Below are positions 514 to 44,057 of a DNA stretch of 44,057 nucleotides, in pieces (position 1 is the first letter of the stretch; each line of letters starts with the position of its first letter). Made by a program: the position numbers and the translations under genes. This DNA comes from Candidatus Zixiibacteriota bacterium (lineage in GTDB: Bacteria; Zixibacteria; MSB-5A5; WJJR01; JAJRUJ01), in NCBI GenBank assembly GCA_024277855.1, contig JAJRUJ010000046.1, positions 1 through 44,057 of the forward strand. The letters are read 5' to 3'. Under the pieces are notes generated by a model. That model had not been told where the DNA came from. It made no database searches and was given only the letters and a program-made list of their open reading frames with translations.

Positions 514-567
514 ATGCGCCTCGGGAAACCATCAAGACTTAATGAGCAAACAAGGATGCGATGTTAA
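514..567 (+). CDS. Possible 17-residue leader peptide upstream of the decahaem cytochrome
   Basis: An ATG at 514 sits six bases after a good Shine-Dalgarno sequence (AAGGAG, 502-507). It opens a 17-codon frame rich in Arg and Lys, ending in TAA at 565-567. The stop overlaps the ATG at 561 of the next gene in another frame, the usual geometry for translational coupling. No known leader-peptide family is recognised and the frame is short enough to occur by chance. If real, it could control translation of the cytochrome gene. Confidence 0.3.
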   Translation: MRLGKPSRLNEQTRMRC

Positions 568-1517
568 TCTTTAATTGGCCAAAAACTAAACTCGCAAATC
601 TGGGGGTAAACATGCAAAGCGCATGCGCCCTGGCAATCTCGGCAATTATGTTGATCTTGCCTTCCGCCCCCTTCGCGGGCGATGTCTTAATCGACAATGA
701 GACCTGTCTGGAGTGTCATGAAGACCCCGCTGTGGCAATGCGGCACACGGTTCATCAACTTACCCCGCCGGATGGTTCGGGGGGAGCGATTGCGATTGGT
801 TGCGTAAGCTGTCACGCCGGTGCCGATGCTCATCTTGACGACCCGGATGTGTCGACAATCGAAAACCCTGCCAATCTGTCGATGGAAGCTGAGGCGACAG
901 TCTGTGCGGCCTGCCATCTGAACGACCACCAGGTGTCGATGGTTGAAACCAATCCCCACGAACTTGCCGGTTTGAATTGTTCTGCCTGTCATGCGATTCA
1001 TGCCGCTGGAGAGCAACCTCGGCGATCGTCTGAAACTTGCCTGACCTGCCACGATGATCAGAAAGGGGAATTCGCGCTGAGTTCCAACCATCGTGTCCTG
1101 GAAGGGGTCGTTGAATGTATCGATTGCCACGATATTGCCCAGAAGCTCCAGGTTCCATTTGGAGATATTCTCACCCGGCGGTGTTTCAGTTGTCATGGTG
1201 AACTGGAAGGGCCATACCCCTTTGAGCACCAGGCAACCAATGCCTATAGCGTCGAGGGCGGGGGGTGCCTGGAGTGCCATCGGCCGCATGGGTCAATTTT
1301 CGACCGGCTGTTGCGTGAACCCGGCACCCAGTTGTGCCGACAATGTCATGCGGCGCCTATTCACCAGACAGCGCACAACGGGTTGTTCGCCAATGAAAAT
1401 TGCCTTAACTGCCACGCGGATATCCACGGCTCGTTCGACGATGAACATTATTTCCCGCCCGGCGTGCCGCCGGCCACCTGCTCCCAAAGCGGGTGCCACC
1501 CGTTAGGAGGGAACTAA
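561..1517 (+). CDS. MtrA/DmsE-type periplasmic multihaem cytochrome c (10 CxxCH + 1 CX4CH)
   Basis: This encodes a 318-residue exported cytochrome with ten CxxCH motifs (in order CLECH, CVSCH, CAACH, CSACH, CLTCH, CIDCH, CFSCH, CLECH, CRQCH, CLNCH). An eleventh candidate, C-SQSG-CH, stands close to the C-terminus. Length, haem number and the following barrel gene match the MtrA/PioA/DmsE family, which forms the haem wire inside an outer-membrane porin. The start at 561 gives a signal peptide with two lysines before the hydrophobic core and cleavage near FAG. An internal ATG at 612 follows a GGGGG sequence but would leave an uncharged n-region, so it is second choice. The stop lies 2 bp before the barrel gene, indicating one operon. 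The CX4CH site is unusual: it may bind an extra haem through a dedicated lyase or may be a relic. Confidence 0.85.
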   Translation: MLIFNWPKTKLANLGVNMQSACALAISAIMLILPSAPFAGDVLIDNETCLECHEDPAVAMRHTVHQLTPPDGSGGAIAIGCVSCHAGADAHLDDPDVSTIENPANLSMEAEATVCAACHLNDHQVSMVETNPHELAGLNCSACHAIHAAGEQPRRSSETCLTCHDDQKGEFALSSNHRVLEGVVECIDCHDIAQKLQVPFGDILTRRCFSCHGELEGPYPFEHQATNAYSVEGGGCLECHRPHGSIFDRLLREPGTQLCRQCHAAPIHQTAHNGLFANENCLNCHADIHGSFDDEHYFPPGVPPATCSQSGCHPLGGN

Positions 1518-1519
1518 CC

Positions 1520-3106
1520 ATGAAGGTGTTACGCTTATTCGGCTTGGTTCTCTTGTTAACGATTTGCTGGTCGACGGGTTCGGCCCTTGCCGGCTGGGAA
1601 GGCGAAGGGTCTATCGACCTGGGGTATACATTCCTCGATCAGGTTGGCAACCGGTCCGCATCGCCGGAAACATATGATGTCTATGACGATTTAGGAATCT
1701 CCCTGCGCGGAATAAGACTGCGGTCAACCAACGGCTATCAACTTAATGCCGATTTCTCCAATATCAATCTTGAAAATCGCTCATTTAATGCCCGTCTCCG
1801 TCGGCCCGGCCGGATGAATTTGTCGGGATTTTTTCGCAAAACCCGGCGGGTGTATGATTTTGAAGGCACGACTCGGACCTATCGTACGCGGGGAGGGTTA
1901 GACCTGACCGTTATGCCTTACCGCACAGTAAAGCTTTCCGGAGGGTATTCGCGAGCCGGACTCGACGGCAATATCCTCCCGACTTTGGGTCTATTTAACG
2001 GTTTTCGTGAAGGCGTATCCGGTTCTCCGGAAGAAATCCAAACAGACTACTCGCTTGATGCATATTATTTCGGCGCGCAATTCCGCCTGCAAAAGACCGT
2101 TCTGGGGGTCCGTTATCGGGGTACGGCGCTGACCGACAATCTCGATGCAAAACAGGATCGTTCGGGACGGCATCTGCAAATCACGGTTTTCAGTCCGCTG
2201 CCGGGTTATGAGCGCCTGACGATGGATGGGTTGTTTTCCACCGGTTGGAATCGAGTTGACGACCGGGATAATAAGCGGAAAGAAACCCTGTTCCGTGGCG
2301 GGGGTGCCTGGTCGCTGACCGACGACTGGTCGCTGACATCCACGTTGCGCTTTTCCCGCACCGATAATGAAGCAACCGGCATCGAGACTGATAATGCCGT
2401 AGGCAATTTGTTTGCCCTGCGGCAATTTGCTCACCGGGCCGAAGCGGGCGTCGGGTATGAATTCCGTTCACAGGACGATCTCGTTAGTCGAACCGAAGCG
2501 AATGCGTTTATTCTGCGAGGAATGTATCGCCCGCTGGAGCGACTCCGATTGCGAGGTCAAGTGGCGTTCTATAATAAAGAGGATAACGACAAAACTACTC
2601 TGGTGGGCGACGAAGACGTAATCCGCCATCGTTTTGAAGTCCGCTACGACCATCCCGACGGCCATCGTCTTACCATCCGCTATCGTGATCGTCGACGGGA
2701 TTTTGAAGATATCGGCGCCGAGGCGGATTATCAATCGGTCACGTCGGTGCTCAGCATCAAGGTTCCCCGGTTCGGCACCGGAACCGGTTCGTACGCTTAC
2801 TCAAAAGGCGATTATCGAAACACGAGTTCGGAATTCGCCTTCGAACAACACGTGCTGACTGCGCAGATGTCGTCGGTGCGTTTCCATCATGCGCAATTGT
2901 CCGCCGGGCTGACTTATCTTCGAAGCCGGCTCTCTTCGGACCTCGAGAAAATTCTATTTACTGTCGGGGCGGATGTCGTCCTCCGCAGAGGGTATTCAGT
3001 CGGCTTGAAATATCAGGCACATACCTATGATGATTTTGTGGCGTTTAACCGGTATTACACGGCAAACGTGTTCACTGTAAACGTGCAAAAAACGGTTCAA
3101 TTCTAA
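1520..3106 (+). CDS. MtrB/PioB-type outer-membrane beta-barrel (porin of the cytochrome conduit)
   Basis: A 528-residue protein with a signal peptide (hydrophobic residues ~5-25, cleavage near ALAG). The rest alternates short polar and aromatic stretches typical of beta strands, with many Arg/Asp/Tyr residues, and ends in a C-terminal phenylalanine (VQKTVQF), the outer-membrane assembly signal. From position between a DmsE-type cytochrome and a multihaem lipoprotein it is assigned to the MtrB/PioB group, which sheathes the periplasmic cytochrome across the outer membrane. The start at 1520 follows AGGAGGG with good spacing, 2 bp after the cytochrome stop. It is shorter than well-known MtrB proteins (about 700 residues) and has no CxxC motif near its N-terminus. 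Sequence alone cannot give the strand number. Confidence 0.75.
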   Translation: MKVLRLFGLVLLLTICWSTGSALAGWEGEGSIDLGYTFLDQVGNRSASPETYDVYDDLGISLRGIRLRSTNGYQLNADFSNINLENRSFNARLRRPGRMNLSGFFRKTRRVYDFEGTTRTYRTRGGLDLTVMPYRTVKLSGGYSRAGLDGNILPTLGLFNGFREGVSGSPEEIQTDYSLDAYYFGAQFRLQKTVLGVRYRGTALTDNLDAKQDRSGRHLQITVFSPLPGYERLTMDGLFSTGWNRVDDRDNKRKETLFRGGGAWSLTDDWSLTSTLRFSRTDNEATGIETDNAVGNLFALRQFAHRAEAGVGYEFRSQDDLVSRTEANAFILRGMYRPLERLRLRGQVAFYNKEDNDKTTLVGDEDVIRHRFEVRYDHPDGHRLTIRYRDRRRDFEDIGAEADYQSVTSVLSIKVPRFGTGTGSYAYSKGDYRNTSSEFAFEQHVLTAQMSSVRFHHAQLSAGLTYLRSRLSSDLEKILFTVGADVVLRRGYSVGLKYQAHTYDDFVAFNRYYTANVFTVNVQKTVQF

Positions 3107-3121
3107 TCGGGAGGACGGGCG

Positions 3122-5347
3122 ATGAAAAGCCTCAAACTTATTTTTATCCTCTGCCTGGCAGTCATCACAATCGCCGTATTCACCTCGTGCGAGCGAAAAG
3201 TAACCAACGAAACGACCAAGATTGTCTCGCCGGGGGATGCAAAATATGTTGGTTCCGAGACGTGTCAGCCATGCCACGCAGATAACTACGCGGACTTTAT
3301 GCAGTCAGGGCATCCATACAAACTCAATGATGCCGTCGACGCACAACAGCCCGGTTACTATCCGTTTGGTGACCTGGAGGGTCCGCCTCCGGGAATGAGC
3401 TGGGACCAGGTGAGGATGGTGATCGGCGGTTTCCGCTGGAAAGCGCGCTTCATTAATCAGGAAGGGTATATCATCACCGGCGACGATGCCAGCGCCACCA
3501 CTCAATGGAACCTGCCGACAAATGACCACCCCGAATCCGAATGGGTGGGGTACCATGCTGGTCAGAAAAACGTGGAGTATAAATGCGGGCCGTGCCATAT
3601 GACCGCCTACAGTCCCGAAGGGAACCAGCTTGGTTTACCCGGCCTGATCGGGACATGGGAGTTCAACGGTGTTCAATGTGAAGAATGTCACGGGCCGGGT
3701 GAATTCCACGCGGAAAAACCCGAATCGTTCGCGATGAAGATTGACCGCACGAATCAGCAGTGCGGCAAATGCCATATTCGTGGCGACAAGTCGGAAATCC
3801 CGGCCAGCGGCGGATTTATCAAACACCATGAACAATGGAATGAAATCTTCCGGAGTAAGCACCTTGCCCTGCAATGTGTCGATTGTCATGATCCGCATAA
3901 GGGTTTGCACGAGAAAAACCCGAACCGCGCCGCGGCGATTCGTTCAAAATGTGAGAGTTGCCACTTTGATGAGGCCGGCGCCTATGAGGAATCGGCCCTG
4001 CCGCATGAAGGTTTAAATATCGACTGTATCGCTTGTCATATGCCGAAAGCGGCAAAATCAGCTCGCAGCGTCGCCGAATATGTCGGCGATGTCCGTTCGC
4101 ATCTGTTTGGAATAAACACCGACCCCGATGCAGAGATGTTTAATGCTGAGGGCAATCTGGCCAACGGGTACTTAACGCTCGAATACACCTGCCTCCAGTG
4201 TCATTCGACCAAGGACAAAGAATGGGCGGCGGCCGCGGCCTCTGCGATTCATCCGGTGTCCCATGCCGGTGCTTCGGAGTATGTCGGGTCAAGTACCTGC
4301 GCAACATGTCATGAGACCATCTACTCGGATTTTGTTAAGTCCGGCCATCCCTACAAATTGAACAAGGCCGCAGACGCGCAACAGCCGGGGTATTACCCCT
4401 TTGGCGACCTGGAAGGTCCGCCTGACGGGTATACCTGGGATCAGGTCAGTTATGTCATCGGCGGTTTCCGGTGGAAAGCGCGCTTCATCGATCTCAACGG
4501 ATATATTATTACCGGCGAGGATGCTGAAGCCACCACACAGTGGAACCTGCCGACCAATGATGACCCTGAACCCGAATGGGTGGGCTATCACGCCGGCGAG
4601 AAAAACGTAGAGTATAACTGTGGGCCTTGTCACATGACCGCCTATAATCCGGTGGGCAATCAGGATGGTTTGCCGGGCATGGTCGGCACCTGGGAATTCG
4701 GCGGTATTCAGTGCGAAGAATGTCACGGCGCCGGAGAACAGCACACTCAGGATCCGCGCGGTGTTCAGATGGTTGTCGAACGCTCCAACCATGCGTGCGG
4801 GAAATGCCACATCCGTGGTGATGTCGGAGATATTCCGGCCAGCGGCGGGTTTGTCAAACACCACGAGCAATGGAATGAACTGTTTAGCAGCAAGCATGCC
4901 TCAATTGGCTGTGTCGACTGCCATGATCCGCACAAGGGCCTGCACGAAAAGAATCCCGACCGCGCTGCGGCGATTAAGTCAAAGTGTGAAAGCTGTCACT
5001 TCAAGGAAGCGGGCAATTTTGCCAAATCCGATCTGCCCATGTACGGCGAAGGTGTCACTTGCCTGGATTGTCATATGCCTAAGGCGGCAAAATCGGCGCG
5101 GTCGGTAGCGACCTATGTCGGGGATGTGCGTTCACATATGTTCGGCATCAACACCGACCCTGACGCGCCGATGTTCAGCGCTGACGGCAAGTCGGCCCTC
5201 GGCTACTTGACGTTGGATTTCACGTGTCTGAAATGTCACACGGACGAAGATAAATCCTGGGCTGCCGAGAACGCCCACAATGTTCATCCCGATGAAAATT
5301 CACCAATCGGACCGAATCCAGACGGGTTTACCTCGTACAGTCAGTAA
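3122..5347 (+). CDS. 16-haem outer-membrane cytochrome lipoprotein made of two tandem octahaem units
   Basis: A 741-residue protein with a lipoprotein signal peptide (hydrophobic residues 5-20, then VFTSC with the lipidated cysteine at about 23). It contains 16 CxxCH motifs in two sets of eight. Unit 1 (residues ~41-385) has CQPCH, CGPCH, CEECH, CGKCH, CVDCH, CESCH, CIACH, CLQCH; unit 2 (~386-730) has CATCH, CGPCH, CEECH, CGKCH, CVDCH, CESCH, CLDCH, CLKCH. Long stretches such as the SGHPYKL, GGFRWKARF and GINTDPDA segments are the same in both units. The fold of each unit is probably c554-like. As the third gene of an MtrA-MtrB operon (16-bp gap, ribosome-binding site GGGAGGACG) it fits the role of the outer-surface cytochrome that passes electrons to or from an external substrate. 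It is not a homologue of MtrC/OmcA that I can recognise, and the substrate is unknown. Confidence 0.85.
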   Translation: MKSLKLIFILCLAVITIAVFTSCERKVTNETTKIVSPGDAKYVGSETCQPCHADNYADFMQSGHPYKLNDAVDAQQPGYYPFGDLEGPPPGMSWDQVRMVIGGFRWKARFINQEGYIITGDDASATTQWNLPTNDHPESEWVGYHAGQKNVEYKCGPCHMTAYSPEGNQLGLPGLIGTWEFNGVQCEECHGPGEFHAEKPESFAMKIDRTNQQCGKCHIRGDKSEIPASGGFIKHHEQWNEIFRSKHLALQCVDCHDPHKGLHEKNPNRAAAIRSKCESCHFDEAGAYEESALPHEGLNIDCIACHMPKAAKSARSVAEYVGDVRSHLFGINTDPDAEMFNAEGNLANGYLTLEYTCLQCHSTKDKEWAAAAASAIHPVSHAGASEYVGSSTCATCHETIYSDFVKSGHPYKLNKAADAQQPGYYPFGDLEGPPDGYTWDQVSYVIGGFRWKARFIDLNGYIITGEDAEATTQWNLPTNDDPEPEWVGYHAGEKNVEYNCGPCHMTAYNPVGNQDGLPGMVGTWEFGGIQCEECHGAGEQHTQDPRGVQMVVERSNHACGKCHIRGDVGDIPASGGFVKHHEQWNELFSSKHASIGCVDCHDPHKGLHEKNPDRAAAIKSKCESCHFKEAGNFAKSDLPMYGEGVTCLDCHMPKAAKSARSVATYVGDVRSHMFGINTDPDAPMFSADGKSALGYLTLDFTCLKCHTDEDKSWAAENAHNVHPDENSPIGPNPDGFTSYSQ
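3242..5311 (+). repeat. Internal tandem duplication within the 16-haem cytochrome gene
   Basis: Two head-to-tail units of about 1035 bp (3242-4276 and 4277-5311) encode octahaem domains that align without large gaps along their full length; all eight haem motifs correspond one to one. The units are joined by a short Ala/His-rich linker. The DNA has drifted mainly at third codon positions, suggesting a duplication that has been kept under selection. Confidence 0.85.
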
Positions 5348-5375
5348 TCGGTAAAAGTGTGTCTCCTATTGAATA

Positions 5376-5406
5376 CCCCCGGGCCGTGCCGGTCCGGGGG
5401 ATTTTT
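5376..5406 (+). terminator. Rho-independent terminator of the mtrA-mtrB-cytochrome operon
   Basis: A 10-bp GC-rich stem (5376-5385 with 5391-5400, one G-U pair) with a 5-nt loop is followed by ATTTTTT. It closes the plus-strand electron-transfer operon 28 bp after the stop codon. Confidence 0.9.
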
Positions 5407-5438
5407 TATTGCGGGAGGAGAACTGACTCATCTGCCAT

Positions 5439-5467
5439 AAAAAAACCCGGCGGGGGGACCCGCCGGG
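5439..5467 (-). terminator. Rho-independent terminator of the tetR-mtrA-mtrB operon (minus strand)
   Basis: Read on the minus strand, a 9-bp stem (CCCGGCGGG with CCCGCCGGG, 5459-5467 and 5446-5454) is followed by a run of seven T (plus-strand A at 5439-5445). It lies just past the end of the interrupted barrel gene, so transcription is apparently meant to run through the whole 5498-9297 unit, including the part after the in-frame stop. Confidence 0.9.
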
Positions 5468-5497
5468 CGAATGCAACACTTACCTGATTTGTTGGTT

Positions 5498-5944
5498 TTA
5501 CATCCCCGTGATCGTCACACCTGCCCGAACGACGAAGAGGGAACCGGATTCGATGCCGTAAACATACCCTTCGTTGTCGGTCAGATCATAGTAGTTGATC
5601 CCGGCGTCAAAACTCATCCGCGGACTGATCTGGTATGAACCGCTCAAAGCGATATTGAGCTGCTTGTAGTCCAGATTCGAGTATTCGTAAATTCCGCTGT
5701 AGTCATAGTTGCCGGATTCGATTGATTCCAGGATTTCTGCGGAAACCTCGGGCATCTCCACCGGGTCGAATTCGGCGGTAGAGATGGTGAAATTACCGTT
5801 CAGATTCACCGTTAATGCTGACCGGGGATGGAAAGAGATACCGCCCGAAATGATTTGTGCGGTGTTGTTGTAGTCGGTCACGCCGAGGAGCGAACCATAA
5901 TGCTTGACACCTCCGCCGGAGGTGTTTGCCGTGATGCCGCCCGC
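5498..5944 (-). pseudogene. C-terminal part of the MtrB-like barrel, cut off by an in-frame TGA
   Basis: Directly after the TGA at 5947-5945 the same frame stays open for another 148 codons to a TAA at 5498. The encoded sequence begins AGGITANTSGG, continues with typical strand-turn-strand patterns (NGNFTIST, LNIALSGSYQI, AGINYYDL) and ends RAGVTITGM. This is the missing end of the barrel: with it the protein would be about 719 residues, the usual MtrB/PioB size. A GTG at 5881 could in theory start a separate product, but it has no good ribosome-binding site and a fragment of a barrel would not fold alone. Either the gene is inactivated by a point mutation, the TGA is read through, or the base is a sequencing error. 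Confidence 0.7.
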
Positions 5945-7657
5945 TCACCCATCCATGATCGCAACAGTTACCGGCCCATTCGACTCGTCGAAAAGATATG
6001 ACGCAGAGCCGAAGAAATTCCACTCGGGACGCGGAGTATAGGTAAACGACACGGCCGGTTGATAGACGGTGCGTTCATAATCCAGACTGTCGAGATCATC
6101 ATTGGTTTCTAATGTGACATTGGCGGTCACCTGCGCCGAAAACTGCGGTGAGGGCCGTAAATTGAGCCGGAAGTCGGCTTGGTGGGCCACTGTCGGCTGA
6201 TTGGTGATTTCGCCGGTGCGCAGGGCGTCCCGTTGGTAATAGTACACCAGCCCGGGGACGTTCTGCCCGCTTCGTTCAAACAACCCTTTGTAATTGGTGA
6301 AAGGGTTATCGGTCAGCTCCAGACGGTATTTTAGCCGGGCATTCACCCGCACAGACGGCCGGTAACTGGCTTTCAGTTGCCCGATATACCGATTGGTCGT
6401 CTGCTTGACCCCGGCATACGGGTAATCATCACGTTGTTCGGCCTCATACCCGGCCAGAAACGCCAGAGTAGTCCGCCGGTCGGGCCGATAGGTTAACTCG
6501 GTTTCGGCGTTACCGCGCCGACCGGTCAGGATCGAATACCGCGTGTAATCGAAATCCTGTCCGCCGCCACTGCGCCCGTCGCGGTAATTCGGCAGATCGA
6601 CAAAATACTCATCGGCATCGCGATGACTCCCCGACGCCTGCGCCCGGAGGGACGCCCTTGGCGAAAGTCGAACGGAGTATTTGGCCGAACCGGAAATGAT
6701 GGTGGTTTTGAGATTGCTATGGTCATTTTTCGCGGTAGTCGCGGACACCCGAGCCAGCAGCGTCCCCTTACCCAGGGCATAGCGGCCCTTGAGTGCGTGG
6801 GACATCTTCTTGACTTCGGGAATCAAATTGACCAGCATGTCCTCGTCTTCAAAGATCAACCGTGAGGCGAACTCATCACCCTTTTGCGCGGTCGGCTCCT
6901 TGGTCGGATGGGCCGCGGAGTCGTAATAGATCTCCGGGGTGGCGGCGTTGGATTTGAAGATCCGATAGCCGAATTCGTACCCGATGGAGCCTTTTTCATT
7001 TTGGGCCGTCGCACCGAGTGAGAGTTCATGCGAGACCCGGTCGCGTTCGGCGGCAAATGACTCGATGTGGCAGGTGGCACAATGCATCAAGGCGAGCGTC
7101 TGGTCGTCGCCTTTTTCGAGGATTGTCCGGTGTGCCGCCGATAGTTTGAGCCAGCCGGCGTCCCGAGGGTTAAACTCTATCTCGGTCTTGATTTCGTGAC
7201 GGGTGAAACCGTACTCGGAACCAGGGTCCAGATCCTCGTGGGTGATCATCTTGCCGCCCTTGGAAATACCTTCCCGGTCCAGCGATTCCCGGACTTCAAG
7301 GTTTGCCAGCAGGTCGGTTGGTTTGATATGCTCCAGCGACCGATAGGAAAGTTTGAACTTCCACTGGTCGGCAATGCGGGCAGTGCCGAAAAGATCGACA
7401 TTGTCGTCATTGTAGAAATGCCCGCGCAGATCGAAAACATTGAAACCGTTGACACCGGAAAGGGCAAACCCGATCTCCGGCATCCCTTCGTCATCCCGAC
7501 CGATATACTCCCCGACCTGGTCGGCAAAGTTGTTGGTACCGGTGTAGTTTCCACCGACATATAACGACCAGCGATAATCGGTCGGTTCCTGTGCCGACGC
7601 CGACGCAAACAAGGCGCCGACGACCAGCAGTGTTGCAAACAATAGCTTTCGCGTCAT
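5945..7657 (-). CDS. MtrB/PioB-type outer-membrane barrel with an internal CxxCH motif; prematurely stopped
   Basis: The 570 residues from ATG 7657 (ribosome-binding site AAGGAGG, 5 bp upstream) begin with a signal peptide (LLFATLLVVGALFASASAQ) followed by barrel-like sequence. They belong to the MtrB/PioB family by context: the gene lies 10 bp after a decahaem DmsE-type cytochrome. A CxxCH haem motif (CATCH, residues ~193-197) sits in the N-terminal third, unusual for a porin; it could place one covalent haem at the cytochrome-barrel interface. The frame ends at TGA 5947-5945 without a C-terminal aromatic residue, but the same frame resumes at once, so the product is probably truncated or the stop is suppressed. 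The barrel at 1520-3106 is a distant relative rather than a recent copy. Confidence 0.75.
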   Translation of the reverse strand: MTRKLLFATLLVVGALFASASAQEPTDYRWSLYVGGNYTGTNNFADQVGEYIGRDDEGMPEIGFALSGVNGFNVFDLRGHFYNDDNVDLFGTARIADQWKFKLSYRSLEHIKPTDLLANLEVRESLDREGISKGGKMITHEDLDPGSEYGFTRHEIKTEIEFNPRDAGWLKLSAAHRTILEKGDDQTLALMHCATCHIESFAAERDRVSHELSLGATAQNEKGSIGYEFGYRIFKSNAATPEIYYDSAAHPTKEPTAQKGDEFASRLIFEDEDMLVNLIPEVKKMSHALKGRYALGKGTLLARVSATTAKNDHSNLKTTIISGSAKYSVRLSPRASLRAQASGSHRDADEYFVDLPNYRDGRSGGGQDFDYTRYSILTGRRGNAETELTYRPDRRTTLAFLAGYEAEQRDDYPYAGVKQTTNRYIGQLKASYRPSVRVNARLKYRLELTDNPFTNYKGLFERSGQNVPGLVYYYQRDALRTGEITNQPTVAHQADFRLNLRPSPQFSAQVTANVTLETNDDLDSLDYERTVYQPAVSFTYTPRPEWNFFGSASYLFDESNGPVTVAIMDG

Positions 7658-7667
7658 CTTTGCCTCC

Positions 7668-8621
7668 TTACCTGGTCAGCGCGCCGGGCGCGGTGATTGA
7701 TTGTGAAGACAGGTCGGTGCCATGAATGGCGCCATGGCACTGGGTGCATTTGGTCAACATCGCGCTTTTGAACCCGTCAAGACTCGACACACCTTCGCGG
7801 CCGTCATACAACGGCGGCGCAAAAGTGCCGTCATACCCGGTGATTTGTGAATGGAAATGCGCCGGATGACAGGACAAACACAACGTCGGTTCATTTTTTA
7901 CCAGCAGGTTGTCAGCCACGGTCCCGTGCGGGTCGTGACAGATCGAACAGTCTTCAACTGCCGGGGCATGCTCAAAGATGAACGGCCCCTGTTTGGCCGG
8001 ATGACAGGAGAAACAGAGTTCCCGGTTGTCTCCGCCGGTCGCAAATTTCTGTTCCCGCCCGTGCGGCTCGTGGCAGTCGATACACCCCATCCGGCCCTCG
8101 ATGATCGGATGATGAGAGGGCAGGCCCGCCTGCGCCCGTTTGTCGGTGTGACAATCAAAACACAACTGCGGCGATTGTTTTTTTAACGATCCCTCGGCGC
8201 TATGGACCACGTGGCAATCAGCGCATCCCCCGGAAACTTCATAGTGCGCCGTTGCAAACGTATTCCCCGCCGTCAGGTCGGTGTGACAGGTCACACACCT
8301 GCTTGAATTATCGGGATCGTCGAGATCACCCGGGTTGAAAATCAACGCCGGGTCTGTTTCTTCCACGTGCGCCGAACCGAGTCCGTGACAAGATTCACAA
8401 GCGATGTGATGGTCTTCCGTGTCGGCCGAATACGCTCGGCCGTGGACGGTTTCGCCGAACATCTGGCCGACCTCGTCATGGCAGTCCAGGCAAGTAGCCG
8501 TGCCGACCGCAATCGCATCGGCCGGCGGCTTACCCGCCAACGCCGATCCTGCGATCAGGCACAGGATAATACTGGCATAGACGGTGATCAGGCCCCGTCG
8601 TCCGCCGGTTTTCATGGGCAT
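7668..8621 (-). CDS. MtrA/DmsE-type decahaem periplasmic cytochrome c
   Basis: A 317-residue exported cytochrome with exactly ten CxxCH motifs (CLDCH, CESCH, CVTCH, CADCH, CFDCH, CIDCH, CFSCH, CSICH, CLSCH, CTQCH), the classical DmsE/MtrA number. The N-terminus carries an Arg/Lys-rich n-region and a hydrophobic core ending in GSALAG. The start at 8621 is chosen because AAGGGGG lies five bases before it; the ATG at 8615 would also keep the signal peptide. The gene stands between tetR and the barrel gene, and its stop is 10 bp before the barrel start, so all three are cotranscribed. It should form the periplasmic half of a second, TetR-controlled porin-cytochrome conduit. No outer-surface cytochrome gene follows in this operon; the conduit may share the 16-haem lipoprotein. 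Confidence 0.88.
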   Translation of the reverse strand: MPMKTGGRRGLITVYASIILCLIAGSALAGKPPADAIAVGTATCLDCHDEVGQMFGETVHGRAYSADTEDHHIACESCHGLGSAHVEETDPALIFNPGDLDDPDNSSRCVTCHTDLTAGNTFATAHYEVSGGCADCHVVHSAEGSLKKQSPQLCFDCHTDKRAQAGLPSHHPIIEGRMGCIDCHEPHGREQKFATGGDNRELCFSCHPAKQGPFIFEHAPAVEDCSICHDPHGTVADNLLVKNEPTLCLSCHPAHFHSQITGYDGTFAPPLYDGREGVSSLDGFKSAMLTKCTQCHGAIHGTDLSSQSITAPGALTR

Positions 8622-8688
8622 AGATACCCCCTTCCAGGTAAAGTGTTGCATTGTTTGTTTTGTTGTGTCCTCATCAGTGTCCCCTCGG

Positions 8689-9297
8689 TTATTTCCGCCG
8701 CAGGCCGGCTGCGAAGATCGGCACATTGTTGCGGACAATACGCTCGGGGTTATAGGCGTTTTTCTGAAACGTCTGCCAGAGGTGCAAACCCAGCGCACAG
8801 TCCATCACCATCCCCATGAAGCAACGGGCGGTGATTTCCGGGTGGATATTGCGAATTTTTTTGGCCCGTTTGAGCGAACGGAGCTTCTTCGTCAGGAAGA
8901 CGACAAACAACCCGCGCAGGTCCTGAAAAGTCCGGTGGGCCTGTGGATGTCCCTCCAATGCCGAAAACAGCAAGAGCCGCGATAGCTCGGTGTTGGCGCT
9001 GTATGTCTTGACCACATACATTGCCAAACCATCAAGTACCTCCTCAATATCGTCGGATTTATCCAGATCGTCGAGGACTTGATGGATATTCAGCCGATCC
9101 TTGAGAGAGACAAGCACTTCACTATAGAGGTCCTGTTTGGAGGCAAAATGCCGGTAGAGTGCCGGCTCGGTGACCCGGCAGGACCGCGCGAGCATGCCCA
9201 TTGTCACCTTCTTGAAACCGTCCCGCGCAAATAACCGCGTGGCTTTTTCGATGATTTGCGCCCGCCGTTCGGAACCGCTCAGTCGTCGTTGTGCCAT
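8689..9297 (-). CDS. TetR-family transcriptional regulator of the porin-cytochrome operon
   Basis: A 202-residue protein with a TetR-type helix-turn-helix at residues ~10-57 (IIEKATRLFARDGFKKVTM ... VTEPALYRHFASKQDLY), which is the strongest family signature, followed by an all-helical ligand domain of the usual length. The ATG at 9297 follows GAAAGAGG. An upstream in-frame ATG (9324) lies inside the operator and lacks a ribosome-binding site, so it was not used. The gene is first in the operon with the MtrA-like and MtrB-like genes, and two dyads lie upstream, so autorepression and repression of the conduit are expected. The ligand cannot be told from sequence. Confidence 0.88.
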   Translation of the reverse strand: MAQRRLSGSERRAQIIEKATRLFARDGFKKVTMGMLARSCRVTEPALYRHFASKQDLYSEVLVSLKDRLNIHQVLDDLDKSDDIEEVLDGLAMYVVKTYSANTELSRLLLFSALEGHPQAHRTFQDLRGLFVVFLTKKLRSLKRAKKIRNIHPEITARCFMGMVMDCALGLHLWQTFQKNAYNPERIVRNNVPIFAAGLRRK

Positions 9298-40083: not shown

Positions 40084-40479
40084 ATGACAAATACGCAGAC
40101 AGGGGCGCGAATCAACTCATTGTTGTTGCTGGTTATCGGCCTCTTGGTTGGAGTAATTACCGGGTACATGATCGGACATTCTCAGAATCCCGGACAGGCG
40201 GCCCGCCTGACCAATCCAACGACATTATTGAATGATCAACTGGCGAAGGAGAACCAGTGGATCGTTGAGGGATTAAACTGCCCGATGGCCGGCTGCACCA
40301 ATCCCTTGCTGGAAGACAGCGGAGATTTGTCTCGTCAGATTCGTGACTGGGTTAATGGTCAACTTGCTGCCGGACGATCGGGACAGGATATCCGTGCTGA
40401 AATAATCCGCACCCACGGTGATCGACTGTTCAAAACATTCAAACCGACCAGCACCGACTCATTATCGTTGCCGAAATAA
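40084..40479 (+). CDS. CcmH/CycL-like membrane-anchored thiol protein
   Basis: A 131-residue protein with one N-terminal transmembrane helix (residues ~11-29) and a periplasmic domain. The segment from CPMAGC (66-71) through LEDSGDLSRQIRDWVNGQLAAGRSGQDIRAEIIRTHGDRLF aligns in length and pattern with the CcmH/NrfF core (a cysteine pair followed by D-S, R-x-x-V-x-x-x-L-x-x-G-x-S-x-x-x-I and Y/H-G-D). CcmH reduces apocytochrome cysteines before haem attachment, which would suit the cytochrome genes at the left end. The cysteines are spaced CX4C instead of CX2C, so the assignment is moderate. The ribosome-binding site GGGGGAG lies seven bases before the ATG. No other ccm genes are in view. Confidence 0.6.
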   Translation: MTNTQTGARINSLLLLVIGLLVGVITGYMIGHSQNPGQAARLTNPTTLLNDQLAKENQWIVEGLNCPMAGCTNPLLEDSGDLSRQIRDWVNGQLAAGRSGQDIRAEIIRTHGDRLFKTFKPTSTDSLSLPK

Positions 40480-40627: not shown

Positions 40628-40699
40628 GGCGCTATCGTCTAGTGGTTAGGACGGGTGGTTCTCAGCCATCAAACCGGGGTTCAATTCCCCGTAGCGCTA
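40628..40699 (+). tRNA. tRNA-Glu (anticodon CTC)
   Basis: A complete cloverleaf: acceptor stem GGCGCTA (40628-40634) with TAGCGCT (40692-40698; one G-U pair), D-arm GTCT/GGAC around AGTGGTTA, anticodon stem GGTGG/CCATC (one G-U) with loop TTCTCAG, giving anticodon CTC at 40661-40663, a 4-nt variable region and T-arm CGGGG/CCCCG around TTCAATT. CCA is not encoded. The TCGTCTAGTGGTTAGGAC stretch is typical of bacterial tRNA-Glu. Confidence 0.95.
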
Positions 40700-41043: not shown

Positions 41044-41064
41044 GCGCAGCGAGGCAGGTTGATT
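41044..41064 (+). repeat. Repeat A, copy 1 (21 bp)
   Basis: A 21-bp sequence beginning GCGCAGCGAGGCAGG is repeated exactly at 43045-43065. Here it lies 30 bp upstream of the -24 box of the first sigma54 promoter. Confidence 0.7.
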
Positions 41065-41069
41065 AGAAT

Positions 41070-41111
41070 AATTATTCATCATCTCTGAATTCCCGGCACA
41101 CTTCCTGCTAT
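41070..41111 (+). promoter_or_regulatory. Sigma54 (RpoN) promoter within repeat B, copy 1
   Basis: A 42-bp element, identical to 43285-43326, contains CGGCACACTTCCTGCTA at 41094-41110. Compared with the sigma54 consensus TGGCAC-N5-TTGC[A/T], GG (41095-41096) and GC (41107-41108) have the exact spacing, and GGCAC and TGC match. The expected transcription start is near 41120. It would drive the two secreted paralogues at 41238-42951. About 42 bp after the element is a ribosome-binding-site/start context (AAAGGAGGTTGCC then GTG at 41154) that stops after two codons. Confidence 0.7.
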
Positions 41112-41226
41112 TACACTTTTTGTATTAACAATTGTTTTCCAAAGGAGGTTGCCGTGTGCTGAAAAAACCCGCATCATTGGTTCGGCGCAAGTGATTCGCA
41201 TTGTGCCAATTGTAAATCAATAGGCA

Positions 41227-41343
41227 GAGGAGGAGGCATGTATCACACCAGGAATATCAAAGTCGTGCTTACATCATGTTGTGCACTGTTTTTGTTCTTC
41301 ACCCTGACCACAATCTGTGCCGCACAAACGACGGGCAAAATCG
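41227..41343 (+). repeat. Leader repeat, copy 1: ribosome-binding site and signal-peptide region shared by two paralogues
   Basis: 117 bp that match 42044-42160 with a single mismatch (an A/T change in codon 8). The block covers the GGAGGAGG ribosome-binding site and about 35 codons including the whole signal peptide, and stops abruptly; beyond it the two genes share only weak protein similarity. Confidence 0.9.
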
Positions 41344-42011
41344 CCGATACGACGGGTCATCTGCAAAGTGCCTTAAACTACAAAGGCAACGGCTGGTTAA
41401 TCCTCAATGGCGAGTACATCCCCGGGCCATACGAGGTGACCATCACTGATAGCACGGTATTGGTCAATGACTTGATTGCCCTCAGTAAACCGGAACCGGG
41501 CGAGAAACGCGTCGTGGACTCAAGCACGACTGCACAACATACTCTCTTGAACGAGCTTAGTGATAGTTTCCACGTCTGGATCGACGCTGTTGGCGTTGAT
41601 ACCGCACGTCAAAAGTGCTTGAGGTTTATGCAAAAGCAATCCTCCGTCGCAGATGCATATATCAAGAATGGCGAGCGGCTGCGCTTCACGTTTAAGAATG
41701 AGAAATATGAAGAAGGGATGTGGCTTAAACCGGCAAAGACTCCGTCAGTTGAGCGTGAAGCCAGACTTAGGGGCAATCTGCAGGCGTATGGTAAACGATT
41801 GCAATCCCGCCTGAATTCAGGCAGCTTGGTAATTTTGCAGGGCGGTCGATACCGAGACGTGTTGTATCCTCGATCGAAAACGGTCTTCAAACAACTTAAA
41901 GAAATTGCAACAGACGTTCCCGATCGGGAGGATCGTGTTTCGGCAATTCTTGAAATAATCCGTCGGCGAAGCTTGGCGGAGACGATTGCAGATAAGTTCT
42001 TCCAGAATTGA
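41238..42011 (+). CDS. Secreted protein of unknown family, paralogue 1
   Basis: A 257-residue exported protein: a signal peptide with an Arg/Lys n-region and a long hydrophobic core ending TICAAQ. The mature part has a GWLILNGEYIPGPYEV motif (residues ~51-66), a helix with a cysteine (TARQKCLRFMQ), then REARLRGNLQAYGKRLQSRLNSGSLVILQGG and a helical C-terminus. The same order of motifs occurs in the next gene, so the two are full-length relatives. I recognise no known family; the GW-I-G-Y-I-PY pattern is the best handle for a search. The ribosome-binding site is GGAGGAGG. It lies under the sigma54 promoter at 41094, with its start 43 bp ahead of a downstream copy of its own leader. Confidence 0.75.
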   Translation: MYHTRNIKVVLTSCCALFLFFTLTTICAAQTTGKIADTTGHLQSALNYKGNGWLILNGEYIPGPYEVTITDSTVLVNDLIALSKPEPGEKRVVDSSTTAQHTLLNELSDSFHVWIDAVGVDTARQKCLRFMQKQSSVADAYIKNGERLRFTFKNEKYEEGMWLKPAKTPSVEREARLRGNLQAYGKRLQSRLNSGSLVILQGGRYRDVLYPRSKTVFKQLKEIATDVPDREDRVSAILEIIRRRSLAETIADKFFQN

Positions 42012-42043
42012 TGCGTTTCGACAATTCTGAATAGCATTTTGGG

Positions 42044-42160
42044 GAGGAGGAGGCATGTATCACACCAGGAATATCAATGTCGTGCTTACATCATGTTGTG
42101 CACTGTTTTTGTTCTTCACCCTGACCACAATCTGTGCCGCACAAACGACGGGCAAAATCG
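42044..42160 (+). repeat. Leader repeat, copy 2
   Basis: Matches 41227-41343 at 116 of 117 positions, as described for copy 1. Identity this high against diverged downstream sequence suggests gene conversion or recent leader exchange. Confidence 0.9.
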
Positions 42161-42951
42161 TGGATGTCAATGATGAGCGATTCCAGGAGCGAATTGATCA
42201 TCTGATGGAGCGGATTCCGTCCTGGGCAAATGAAACAGATGCCCTGCGCCAAAAATACCGTGAAGCGCTGGTCGATTATAGTTTCCGAAGCGTTCAGCAA
42301 GGGCACGCGGCCAGGCCATTGGAAGGCCCCGGATGGTTGATTATAGACTGTGAACGGATTCACAGTCCATTTGATGTGGTCGTTCATGATAGTTGCATTA
42401 CCGCAAACGGGCTCAGAGTATATCCAGAAGCCCCCGCCGAAATAGATACCAATGTTGTTGTTGAGTCCGCGGTATTGGAACGCGTCCAAGTCAGTGATTC
42501 GTTGTGGAAGGCTTTGCCTATCTGGCTGGAAGAGGGACTGGAAACGGCCGAGCATTTGGCTGTGGAGTTTATGCAATCTCAGCCAATCGTGGATACCGCA
42601 TATATTGCTGAACCGGGGACAATGCGAGTGGTCTATCATGGCCGGTTACGTGAAGTGGATTTCGCTTTGGCATCTGGGCGTAATAGTCGCAAGCCGTCCG
42701 AAGGCTGGTTGCGGGAGCAATTGGAAAAAAAAGCGGCGCGTATCAGGAGCGCACTGACTCATCATGGTTTAGTGATCGCCCAAGACGGTCATTTGAGGAT
42801 TGAACGCAGTTTTGAAGCACCTTTGATTTTTGCAAGACTGCAAGAAATCGCGCGAGATATTTCTGAGCAGGAAGCTCGATATCAAGCTATCATCAAAGTA
42901 TTCGATGACGAAACGGTGGCTCATGCGCTTGCCGAGCGCTTTATGCAATGA
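42055..42951 (+). CDS. Secreted protein of unknown family, paralogue 2
   Basis: A 298-residue exported protein with a signal peptide differing from paralogue 1 in a single residue. The mature part is longer by an insert (residues ~38-85, a helical segment with IDHLMERIPSWANETDALRQKYREAL). It keeps the family motifs: GWLIIDCERIHSPFDVVVHDS (~92-112), an ETAEHLAVEFMQSQPIVDTAYI helix, and WLREQLEKKAARIRSALTHHGLVIAQDG. The terminal helix LQEIARDISEQEARYQAIIKVF pairs with LKEIATDVPDREDRVSAILEII of paralogue 1. Mature identity is roughly one residue in four by eye. Function unknown. No terminator is visible after it. Confidence 0.75.
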   Translation: MYHTRNINVVLTSCCALFLFFTLTTICAAQTTGKIVDVNDERFQERIDHLMERIPSWANETDALRQKYREALVDYSFRSVQQGHAARPLEGPGWLIIDCERIHSPFDVVVHDSCITANGLRVYPEAPAEIDTNVVVESAVLERVQVSDSLWKALPIWLEEGLETAEHLAVEFMQSQPIVDTAYIAEPGTMRVVYHGRLREVDFALASGRNSRKPSEGWLREQLEKKAARIRSALTHHGLVIAQDGHLRIERSFEAPLIFARLQEIARDISEQEARYQAIIKVFDDETVAHALAERFMQ

Positions 42952-43284
42952 CCGTCACGTGGAGTATGGGACCAATCATACAGCCTATCTATTTTCTTCA
43001 TTTTCGTGGGAGAGTGGTTGGGGGAAAATGGGGATAGAGATACTGCGCAGCGAGGCAGGTTGATTTGAGATTAAGTCCAGGAGTAACATGGAGTAACATA
43101 TAGATTGGGGTGCGTTAGCGCACGCAGCGATTGCGCTGACGCAGGATAACTTCCGTATAGATAGATACTTACACAATCTTAAGGGTGTGACTGCGCAATC
43201 TCCTCCGGCGCAAACGGTGAAATCACCGCTTGCCGTACAACCGTGAGCGCACATGTATCCCTTCGTTCAATAATGACTTAGCAA
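42952..43284. other. Intergenic region with small dyads and a tandem decamer
   Basis: No convincing gene. It contains repeat A copy 2 (43045-43065), a tandem direct repeat GGAGTAACAT at 43080-43089 and 43090-43099, the hairpin GTGCG-TTAG-CGCAC (43110-43123) and the dyad CGGTGA-AA-TCACCG (43215-43228). The last dyad is 82-95 bp upstream of the -24 box of the second sigma54 promoter, a normal distance for an enhancer-binding protein site. A minus-strand frame of 89 residues (42985-43254) has no ribosome-binding site and is not called. Confidence 0.45.
43045..43065 (+). repeat. Repeat A, copy 2 (21 bp)
   Basis: Exact copy of 41044-41064. Here it is about 245 bp upstream of the -24 box rather than 30 bp, so repeat A and repeat B move independently. 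Confidence 0.7.
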
Positions 43285-43326
43285 AATTATTCATCATCTC
43301 TGAATTCCCGGCACACTTCCTGCTAT
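43285..43326 (+). promoter_or_regulatory. Sigma54 (RpoN) promoter within repeat B, copy 2
   Basis: Identical 42-bp copy of 41070-41111. The -24 GG is at 43310-43311 and the -12 GC at 43322-43323, so transcription should start near 43335. It precedes the partial lipoprotein gene at 43612. Confidence 0.7.
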
Positions 43327-43370
43327 GACGGTTTGGCAGAACCAAAACCCAAACCGAAAGGGAGGTTGCC

Positions 43371-43403
43371 ATGCGGAATAACATACTTTTTAATTGGTTA
43401 TAG
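43371..43403 (+). CDS. Possible 10-residue leader ORF after the second sigma54 promoter
   Basis: ATG at 43371 is directly preceded by AAAGGGAGGTTGCC, almost the same as AAAGGAGGTTGCC before the GTG at 41154. The frame encodes MRNNILFNWL and stops at TAG 43401-43403. The conserved start context in two promoter copies suggests a leader peptide or the relic of a lost first gene; the peptides themselves are not similar. Confidence 0.3.
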   Translation: MRNNILFNWL

Positions 43404-43611: not shown

Positions 43612-44057
43612 ATGCGAACAGAACAACGGATCAGGCGGGGACATATCAACGCATTGATGAGAATGGCCGCGTCGATATTATCAGTGGTTACCTATTGCCT
43701 TATATTTATCAACTGCGATGGGGGAGTAATAGGAGAGATACCTTGGAGTGTAGAAGGTAAAGTCTTGGAGTATGGCACAAATCTGCCTATCGACTCTGCG
43801 TGGGTTACCCCTGGGGATACCAATGTATTGGAATCACTATGGTATACCGACACTTTGGGCGAATTTTTCGTTGGGGGGGCATACGGCAGCCTTCCGGACG
43901 ACATCTACGTTGGTAGAACAGGGTATATAACCTCTCATCAAATTTTGGGTTTTGAGCGCGGCAGCAGATCAGTAACCGGAATCGTCATTCAGCTCGAAAA
44001 AGCGAGCAAGCAGACTGAGGGGAACAATGATGCGGGCCGCGAACAGCATTCTGATAA
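43612..44057 (+). CDS. Putative lipoprotein with carboxypeptidase-regulatory-like domain (partial, runs off the window)
   Basis: ATG 43612 follows GGAAGGA at good distance and the frame is open to the window end (148 codons). The N-terminus has a basic stretch (RTEQRIRRGH), a hydrophobic segment (ILSVVTYCLIFIN) and then CDGG. The INC site is an unusual lipobox, so a plain signal anchor is possible. Residues ~47-110 (VEGKVLEYGTNLPIDSAWV ... YTDTLGEFFVGG ... GYITSH) have the pattern of a carboxypeptidase-regulatory-like beta-sandwich, common in surface proteins. The remainder is polar. It lies downstream of the second sigma54 promoter, so it may share regulation with the paralogue pair. Confidence 0.65.
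   Translation, partial: MRTEQRIRRGHINALMRMAASILSVVTYCLIFINCDGGVIGEIPWSVEGKVLEYGTNLPIDSAWVTPGDTNVLESLWYTDTLGEFFVGGAYGSLPDDIYVGRTGYITSHQILGFERGSRSVTGIVIQLEKASKQTEGNNDAGREQHSD

Follow-up and report, generated by a model that had tools for sequence, protein, structure and literature searches.

The second copy of a 42-bp element that occurs twice in the window, i.e., the whole stretch of 44,057 nucleotides analysed here and the entire contig C32 of a 3.07-Mb, 129-contig genome, is most likely, judging from its sequence context, a promoter in a small regulon of a TPR-containing sigma54 activator (EBP) encoded on contig C24. The element itself is very probably a real sigma54 gene switch. The joint reading, with copy 2 as a working sigma54 promoter served by the C24 EBP through an upstream tandem dyad and copy 1 as a duplicate without this dyad, is likely to be correct. 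The window alone displays an ordinary-looking sigma54 promoter; the trail from it leads to a conserved gene order at many loci of one phylum. Naming a probable regulator from sequence is unusual for an uncultured lineage, and its predicted binding site is defined sharply enough for a direct test.

The two copies of the element had been described as identical, and they are indeed the same letter for letter, while the flanking sequence differs on both sides. Self-BLAST recovered the pair with a 52-nt core (E = 1e-15), and a genome-wide search for the element allowing up to 3 mismatches returned no place beyond these two. The element and its surroundings comprise the following features:

41044..41067, + strand, 24-nt repeat D3, copy 1, immediately next to the 42-bp element and without the dyad segment

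41070..41111, + strand, 42-bp element, copy 1 (sequence comparison, self-BLAST)

41094..41109, + strand, sigma54 -24/-12 core CGGCACACTTCCTGCT of copy 1, no TGCGN4CGCA dyad upstream

43045..43068, + strand, 24-nt repeat D3, copy 2 (sequence comparison)

43111..43143, + strand, tandem dyad TGCGTTAGCGCA-N9-TGCGCTGACGCA, proposed enhancer (UAS) for the C24 TPR-EBP, from its uniqueness and equal spacing

43285..43326, + strand, 42-bp element, copy 2 (sequence comparison, self-BLAST)

43309..43324, + strand, sigma54 -24/-12 core CGGCACACTTCCTGCT of copy 2, GG-N10-GC, same composite as C24:20561-20620

The proposed sigma54 site was borne out as well, as CGGCACACTTCCTGCT is present in both copies with exact GG-N10-GC spacing. 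Compared to the TGGCAC/TTGC consensus, it carries C and not T as first base, and its -12 element is CTGC and not TTGC; the same C-GGCACA form is seen at a site adjoining another EBP gene of the genome, on contig C54. The genome encodes RpoN, located on C24 (PF04552, E = 6.8e-55), and its EBPs are represented by 22 Sigma54_activat matches, ~18 of them strong. The bare core YGGCACN5YTGCW, searched genome-wide, gave 16 matches vs 19 in a reversed control, thus showing no enrichment, and the case for function therefore rests on context.

A third site, on C24, was first met as a weak match when a 2.4-kb region of the window was searched against the genome. It consists of GGCACAGTTCCTGCTATTAC followed 35 nt on by GGAGGTTGTC, vs 34 nt in copy 1 and 36 nt in copy 2, and has GGCACA.TTCCTGCTAT and GGAGGTTG in common with the window copies at nearly equal spacing. 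The 5' half of the 42-bp element is not present at this site. The composite GGCACRNNNNYTGCTN{30,40}GGAGGTTGYC is found at three places in the genome (C32 twice, C24 once) and nowhere in the control for this genome, and it is absent from 132 other genomes of the phylum. Among 85,000 named genomes, a collection outside which the window's genome falls, the same pattern gave 17 scattered matches, approximately the number estimated for chance. The C24 sigma54 site begins 206 nt past the stop of the gene encoding the TPR-EBP, a protein of 762 aa with TPR repeats, a Sigma54_activat AAA+ domain containing GAFTGA and a C-terminal HTH-like stretch that gave a weak match (PF02954, E = 0.001, below cut-off).

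The tandem dyad upstream of copy 2 has a counterpart at C24, TGCGTCGACGCA-N9-TGCGTCGACGCA, and the distance from the dyad start to the GG of the -24 element is exactly 199 nt in both cases. Only two perfect matches to the dyad exist in 133 genomes of the phylum, both in the window's genome, where 0.0013 would be expected, and all others have 3 mismatches, which is about chance level. As the dyad was recognised from C24 and the window jointly, i.e., after the fact, its uniqueness and the equal spacing are the only observations independent of that choice. The DNA itself shows the composite architecture with its exact spacing, its uniqueness, and that the genome encodes both RpoN and the EBP. Since the dyad is unique to copy 2 and C24, stands at equal spacing and, at C24, belongs to a site behind an EBP gene, copy 2 is read as a target of that EBP, with the dyad as its predicted binding site acting in trans on copy 2. 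RpoN-polymerase would then bind CGGCACACTTCCTGCT at copy 2, and the C24 TPR-EBP would bind the tandem dyad about 170-200 bp upstream and open the copy-2 promoter. Transcription would start near 43335, with the frames downstream as predicted targets. The EBP would also act on the identically spaced dyad and promoter right behind its own gene. The genome encodes a second TPR-EBP of 980 aa (L082:6360-9641, on contig C125), with a 94-aa exported protein carrying 'DGHPWDDG' before the gene and no sigma54 site found close behind it.

The two surroundings are related by the D3 repeat, which is identical at 23 of 24 positions and lies upstream of the element in both cases. In copy 2, ~216 nt separate D3 from the element, with the dyad in between, and the roughly 210 nt bearing the dyad are lacking in copy 1. 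Copy 1 may be weak or silent, or it may be served by the copy-2 dyad 2 kb away, or conceivably by an activator site of another kind. The original prediction had suggested a shared regulator site in the 5' half of the element. A regulator site is supported, namely the tandem dyad upstream of copy 2 and C24, but neither its location in the 5' half, which C24 lacks, nor its sharing with copy 1, which has no dyad, could be upheld. Because copy 1 misses the dyad segment and is abutted by D3, the 5' half is more plausibly ascribed to the local duplication than to the regulator. An inverted repeat within this half, ATTCA-N7-TGAAT, was dismissed as an EBP enhancer by reasoning, as it is positioned too near -24 for a usual enhancer. 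Similarly, GCCTCGCT, common to D3 and the C24 upstream region, does not exceed chance level.

Downstream of the two copies, the following features were identified:

41141..41156, + strand, SD-like AAAGGAGGTTGCCGTG behind copy 1, opening GTG-TGC-TGA only

41227..41348, + strand, 122-nt repeat, copy 1, covering SD and signal-peptide codons, 98% identical to 42044-42165

41238..42011, + strand, 257-aa secreted protein with a signal peptide (by inspection) and an SD of its own, GGAGGAGGC

42044..42165, + strand, 122-nt repeat, copy 2 (sequence comparison)

42055..42951, + strand, secreted paralogue, 298 aa, 34% identical overall to the 41238 protein (sequence comparison)

43358..43373, + strand, SD-like AAGGGAGGTTGCCATG behind copy 2, opening only the 10-codon frame MRNNILFNWL

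43612..44057, + strand, nearest long frame downstream of copy 2, 148 aa up to the contig end, possibly an exported protein, without a family match

Nearly identical ribosome-binding and start contexts had been claimed behind the two copies. The SD-like motifs are near-identical, with 34 and 36 nt from TGCT to GGAGG, but the starts open frames of 2 and 10 codons only; including C24, GGAGGTTGYC(R)TG is found at three sites with frames of 2, 10 and 9 codons. The long frames at 41238, 42055 and 43612 are each preceded by an SD-like sequence of their own. As the SD-like motifs open tiny frames and the long genes start further down, the promoters would yield either long leaders or a short RNA. The contig ends at 44057, and the putative copy-2 target gene, the 43612 frame, is therefore incomplete. 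At C24, the sigma54 target (L029:5617-6543) is a lipoprotein-like frame whose likely start overlaps the 9-codon ATG frame in another frame, and a small membrane protein is encoded next.

Under the short-RNA option, the promoters would not serve the secreted genes but yield a short non-coding RNA or a regulatory leader in which GGAGGTTGCC is a part of the RNA instead of a ribosome-binding site. This view is compatible with the sigma54 part and, although we consider it rather unlikely, it is consistent with the fact that none of the three GGAGGTTG(Y)C sites in the genome opens more than a tiny frame; however, a run of three frames no longer than 10 codons is not unusual by chance (~5%, an estimate). 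Relatives have a terminator-ended RNA of ~90-130 nt at the same position behind the EBP, yet model R1 of the relatives' RNA matches nothing in the window or in the other searched loci of the genome, and no convincing terminator stands close behind either copy. The C24 leader region does hold a perfect 10-bp inverted repeat, though the likely start site would cut part of it off, and C24 runs straight into the lipoprotein frame.

The tiny frames directly after the SD could also mark both copies as an old promoter and gene start whose gene body has decayed, with 41238 and 43612 using other promoters. The overlap between the C24 lipoprotein frame and an ATG in another frame would agree with such relics, as would the different, sigma70-like upstream region of the 41238 paralogues elsewhere in the genome. 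Yet a relic would not be expected to retain dyad, spacing and core in full, as copy 2 does, and no sigma70-like site above chance precedes the genes, making this scenario improbable. Least probable, to the point of being hard to credit, is that the element is a mere duplicate arising from local duplication or gene conversion with an accidental sigma54 match. Recent repeats do abound in the neighbourhood (117 nt at 99%, 24 nt and 52 nt), and the reversed control yields at least as many cores of such quality. However, the C24 site lies outside the local duplication and nevertheless combines the same core, SD-like motif and spacing with an equally spaced dyad beside an EBP gene. A sigma54 promoter at copy 2 served by the C24 EBP thus remains the preferred reading.

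An RpoN regulon of secreted proteins had been proposed as well, of which the sigma54 promoter is supported, while a wide regulon and control of the entire family are not. The regulon as seen in this genome is small, with two loci that have dyad and promoter, and a third promoter without a dyad. The first 117 nt of the 41238 and 42055 genes are 99% identical, and three more paralogues are encoded on contigs C59, C82 and C4, with a different, sigma70-like upstream region in which no sigma54 site was found. These paralogues rule out sigma54 control of the whole secreted family, and hence a general RpoN regulon of it. The family has relatives in four further genomes of the phylum. Searches of the window proteins against Pfam, NCBIfam and PDB gave nothing convincing, and the predicted structure of the 257-aa protein was too poor for a fold search (mean pLDDT 49.5). 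Relatives of the 41238 protein (L088, L089, L090, L093 and L095) are followed by a conserved exported partner with the motif 'TPGDN.G.D...YLFAPF.W...', ~350-450 aa where complete, for which the one protein scanned had no Pfam match; the window pair is without this partner. The exported paralogues display a constant 5' end, with signal-peptide DNA similar to identical and, in addition, up to ~280 nt upstream, and a diverging mature part. This pattern is seen in the window pair (41227-41348 and 42044-42165), in the C59, C82 and C4 paralogues (L094, L095 and L096) and in two small ORFs before the C24 EBP (L084:11-723), and may have arisen by gene conversion or an exchange of modules.

The C24 EBP has homologues in 127 of 133 genomes (E <= 1e-60), some of the matches covering the AAA+ part only. 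For 65 loci with enough sequence, picked from the better matches and including the C24 locus, the surroundings of the gene were studied. A same-strand sigma54 site follows within 450 nt downstream of the EBP at 40 of these loci, vs 0 on the opposite strand and 1.0 expected from shuffled sequence. Between the EBP stop and the sigma54 site, 23 of 45 loci contained TCGT-N6-9-ACGA dyads, located near -205 and -114 and 37 in total, vs 0.73 expected and one in control intervals, the count being made after TCGTA...TACGA blocks had shown up in group alignments. With its position at -200, the window dyad agrees with the distal one of these two places. When closely spaced tandem dyads were sought more generally behind other EBPs, the outcome was mostly negative, as the two dyads of the relatives are ~91 nt apart. 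An RNA of ~90-130 nt that stops at a strong intrinsic terminator is predicted at about 29 of 45 sites. At least two or three RNA sequence types occur behind TPR-EBPs, the commonest having a GAGGGG loop on a stem of which 6 of 11 pairs show compensatory changes, and none of the RNAs searched matched an Rfam family at gathering threshold. The terminator-ended product could also be an attenuated leader instead of a free small RNA. On the other side of the gene, most of the 65 loci have a small frame with a signal-peptide-like start that ends at or just before the EBP start, often with a stop-start overlap. These frames are 90-170 aa long, frequently contain a DDHPWGG motif and, among those scanned, gave no Pfam family at cut-off. 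The order exported protein, TPR-EBP, dyads, sigma54 promoter and terminator-ended ~100-nt RNA is represented by loci L098-L127 and L145-L184. In the window's own order, no sigma54 site was found within 450 nt downstream at any of six loci (L099, L101-L105), and the arrangement is looser there.

It could be speculated that the window promoter is part of an undescribed, phylum-wide module, a proposal that we regard as doubtful but worth stating. Here, the TPR-EBP would sense the small exported protein, or a peptide cut from it, and then act through two dyads and the sigma54 promoter directly behind its gene to drive a small regulatory RNA in many families and, in this genome, genes for exported proteins, resembling RRNPP-like peptide sensing with a sigma54 output. 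The gene order suggests peptide sensing, and if the exported protein is the signal, TPR peptide sensing would reach beyond Bacillota and be coupled to sigma54. No description of TPR-sigma54-peptide or sRNA systems of this kind was found in the open-licence literature, which is weak evidence of absence.

Several known systems share parts of this arrangement. RRNPP(A) peptide receptors belong to Bacillota (PMC9765709, PMC10075063). Like them, the module has a cytoplasmic TPR regulator encoded beside a small exported protein, but it differs in its sigma54 and AAA+ output, in its phylum, and in an exported protein of ~90-170 aa placed upstream. In Pfam, the C24 EBP matches generic TPR models, MalT-like TPR and sigma54 AAA+, with no family specific to receptors such as Rap, NprR, PlcR, PrgX or Rgg among the 25 matches listed. 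Promoters of the NtrC, DctD and LuxO type resemble the present ones in the GG-N10-GC core, the upstream tandem dyads and the AAA+ activator with GAFTGA, whereas the N-terminal region of the C24 activator consists of TPR and not of a response-regulator, GAF or PAS domain, and the window/C24 dyad sequence is specific to the C24 protein and genome. In Vibrio, the EBP LuxO drives the sigma54-dependent regulatory RNA Qrr1 via two UASs, one between -175 and -106 and the other between -106 and -60 (PMC10162802). The relatives of the C24 EBP are alike in having, beside the EBP gene, two dyads with a sigma54 promoter and a terminator-ended RNA of ~100 nt, but the C24 EBP carries TPR in place of the receiver domain and is not of the LuxO family (241 bits to model NF041946, cut-off 800). 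The PEP-CTERM/PrsR-type regulon likewise places exported proteins under sigma54 control; the PEP-CTERM response-regulator model TIGR02915 matched the C24 EBP with 259 bits vs a cut-off of 502.6, in the AAA+ and C-terminal part only.

Elsewhere in the window, a cluster of multihaem-like proteins extends over 561-8798 and includes, at 3122-5347, a multihaem cytochrome-like protein with an internal tandem duplication (3286-4203 vs 4321-5238, DNA 73% identical). Next to a tRNA gene at 40628-40699, the frame at 40084-40479 encodes a stand-alone CcmH-like protein whose match to Pfam CcmH (E = 8e-5) narrowly misses the cut-off.
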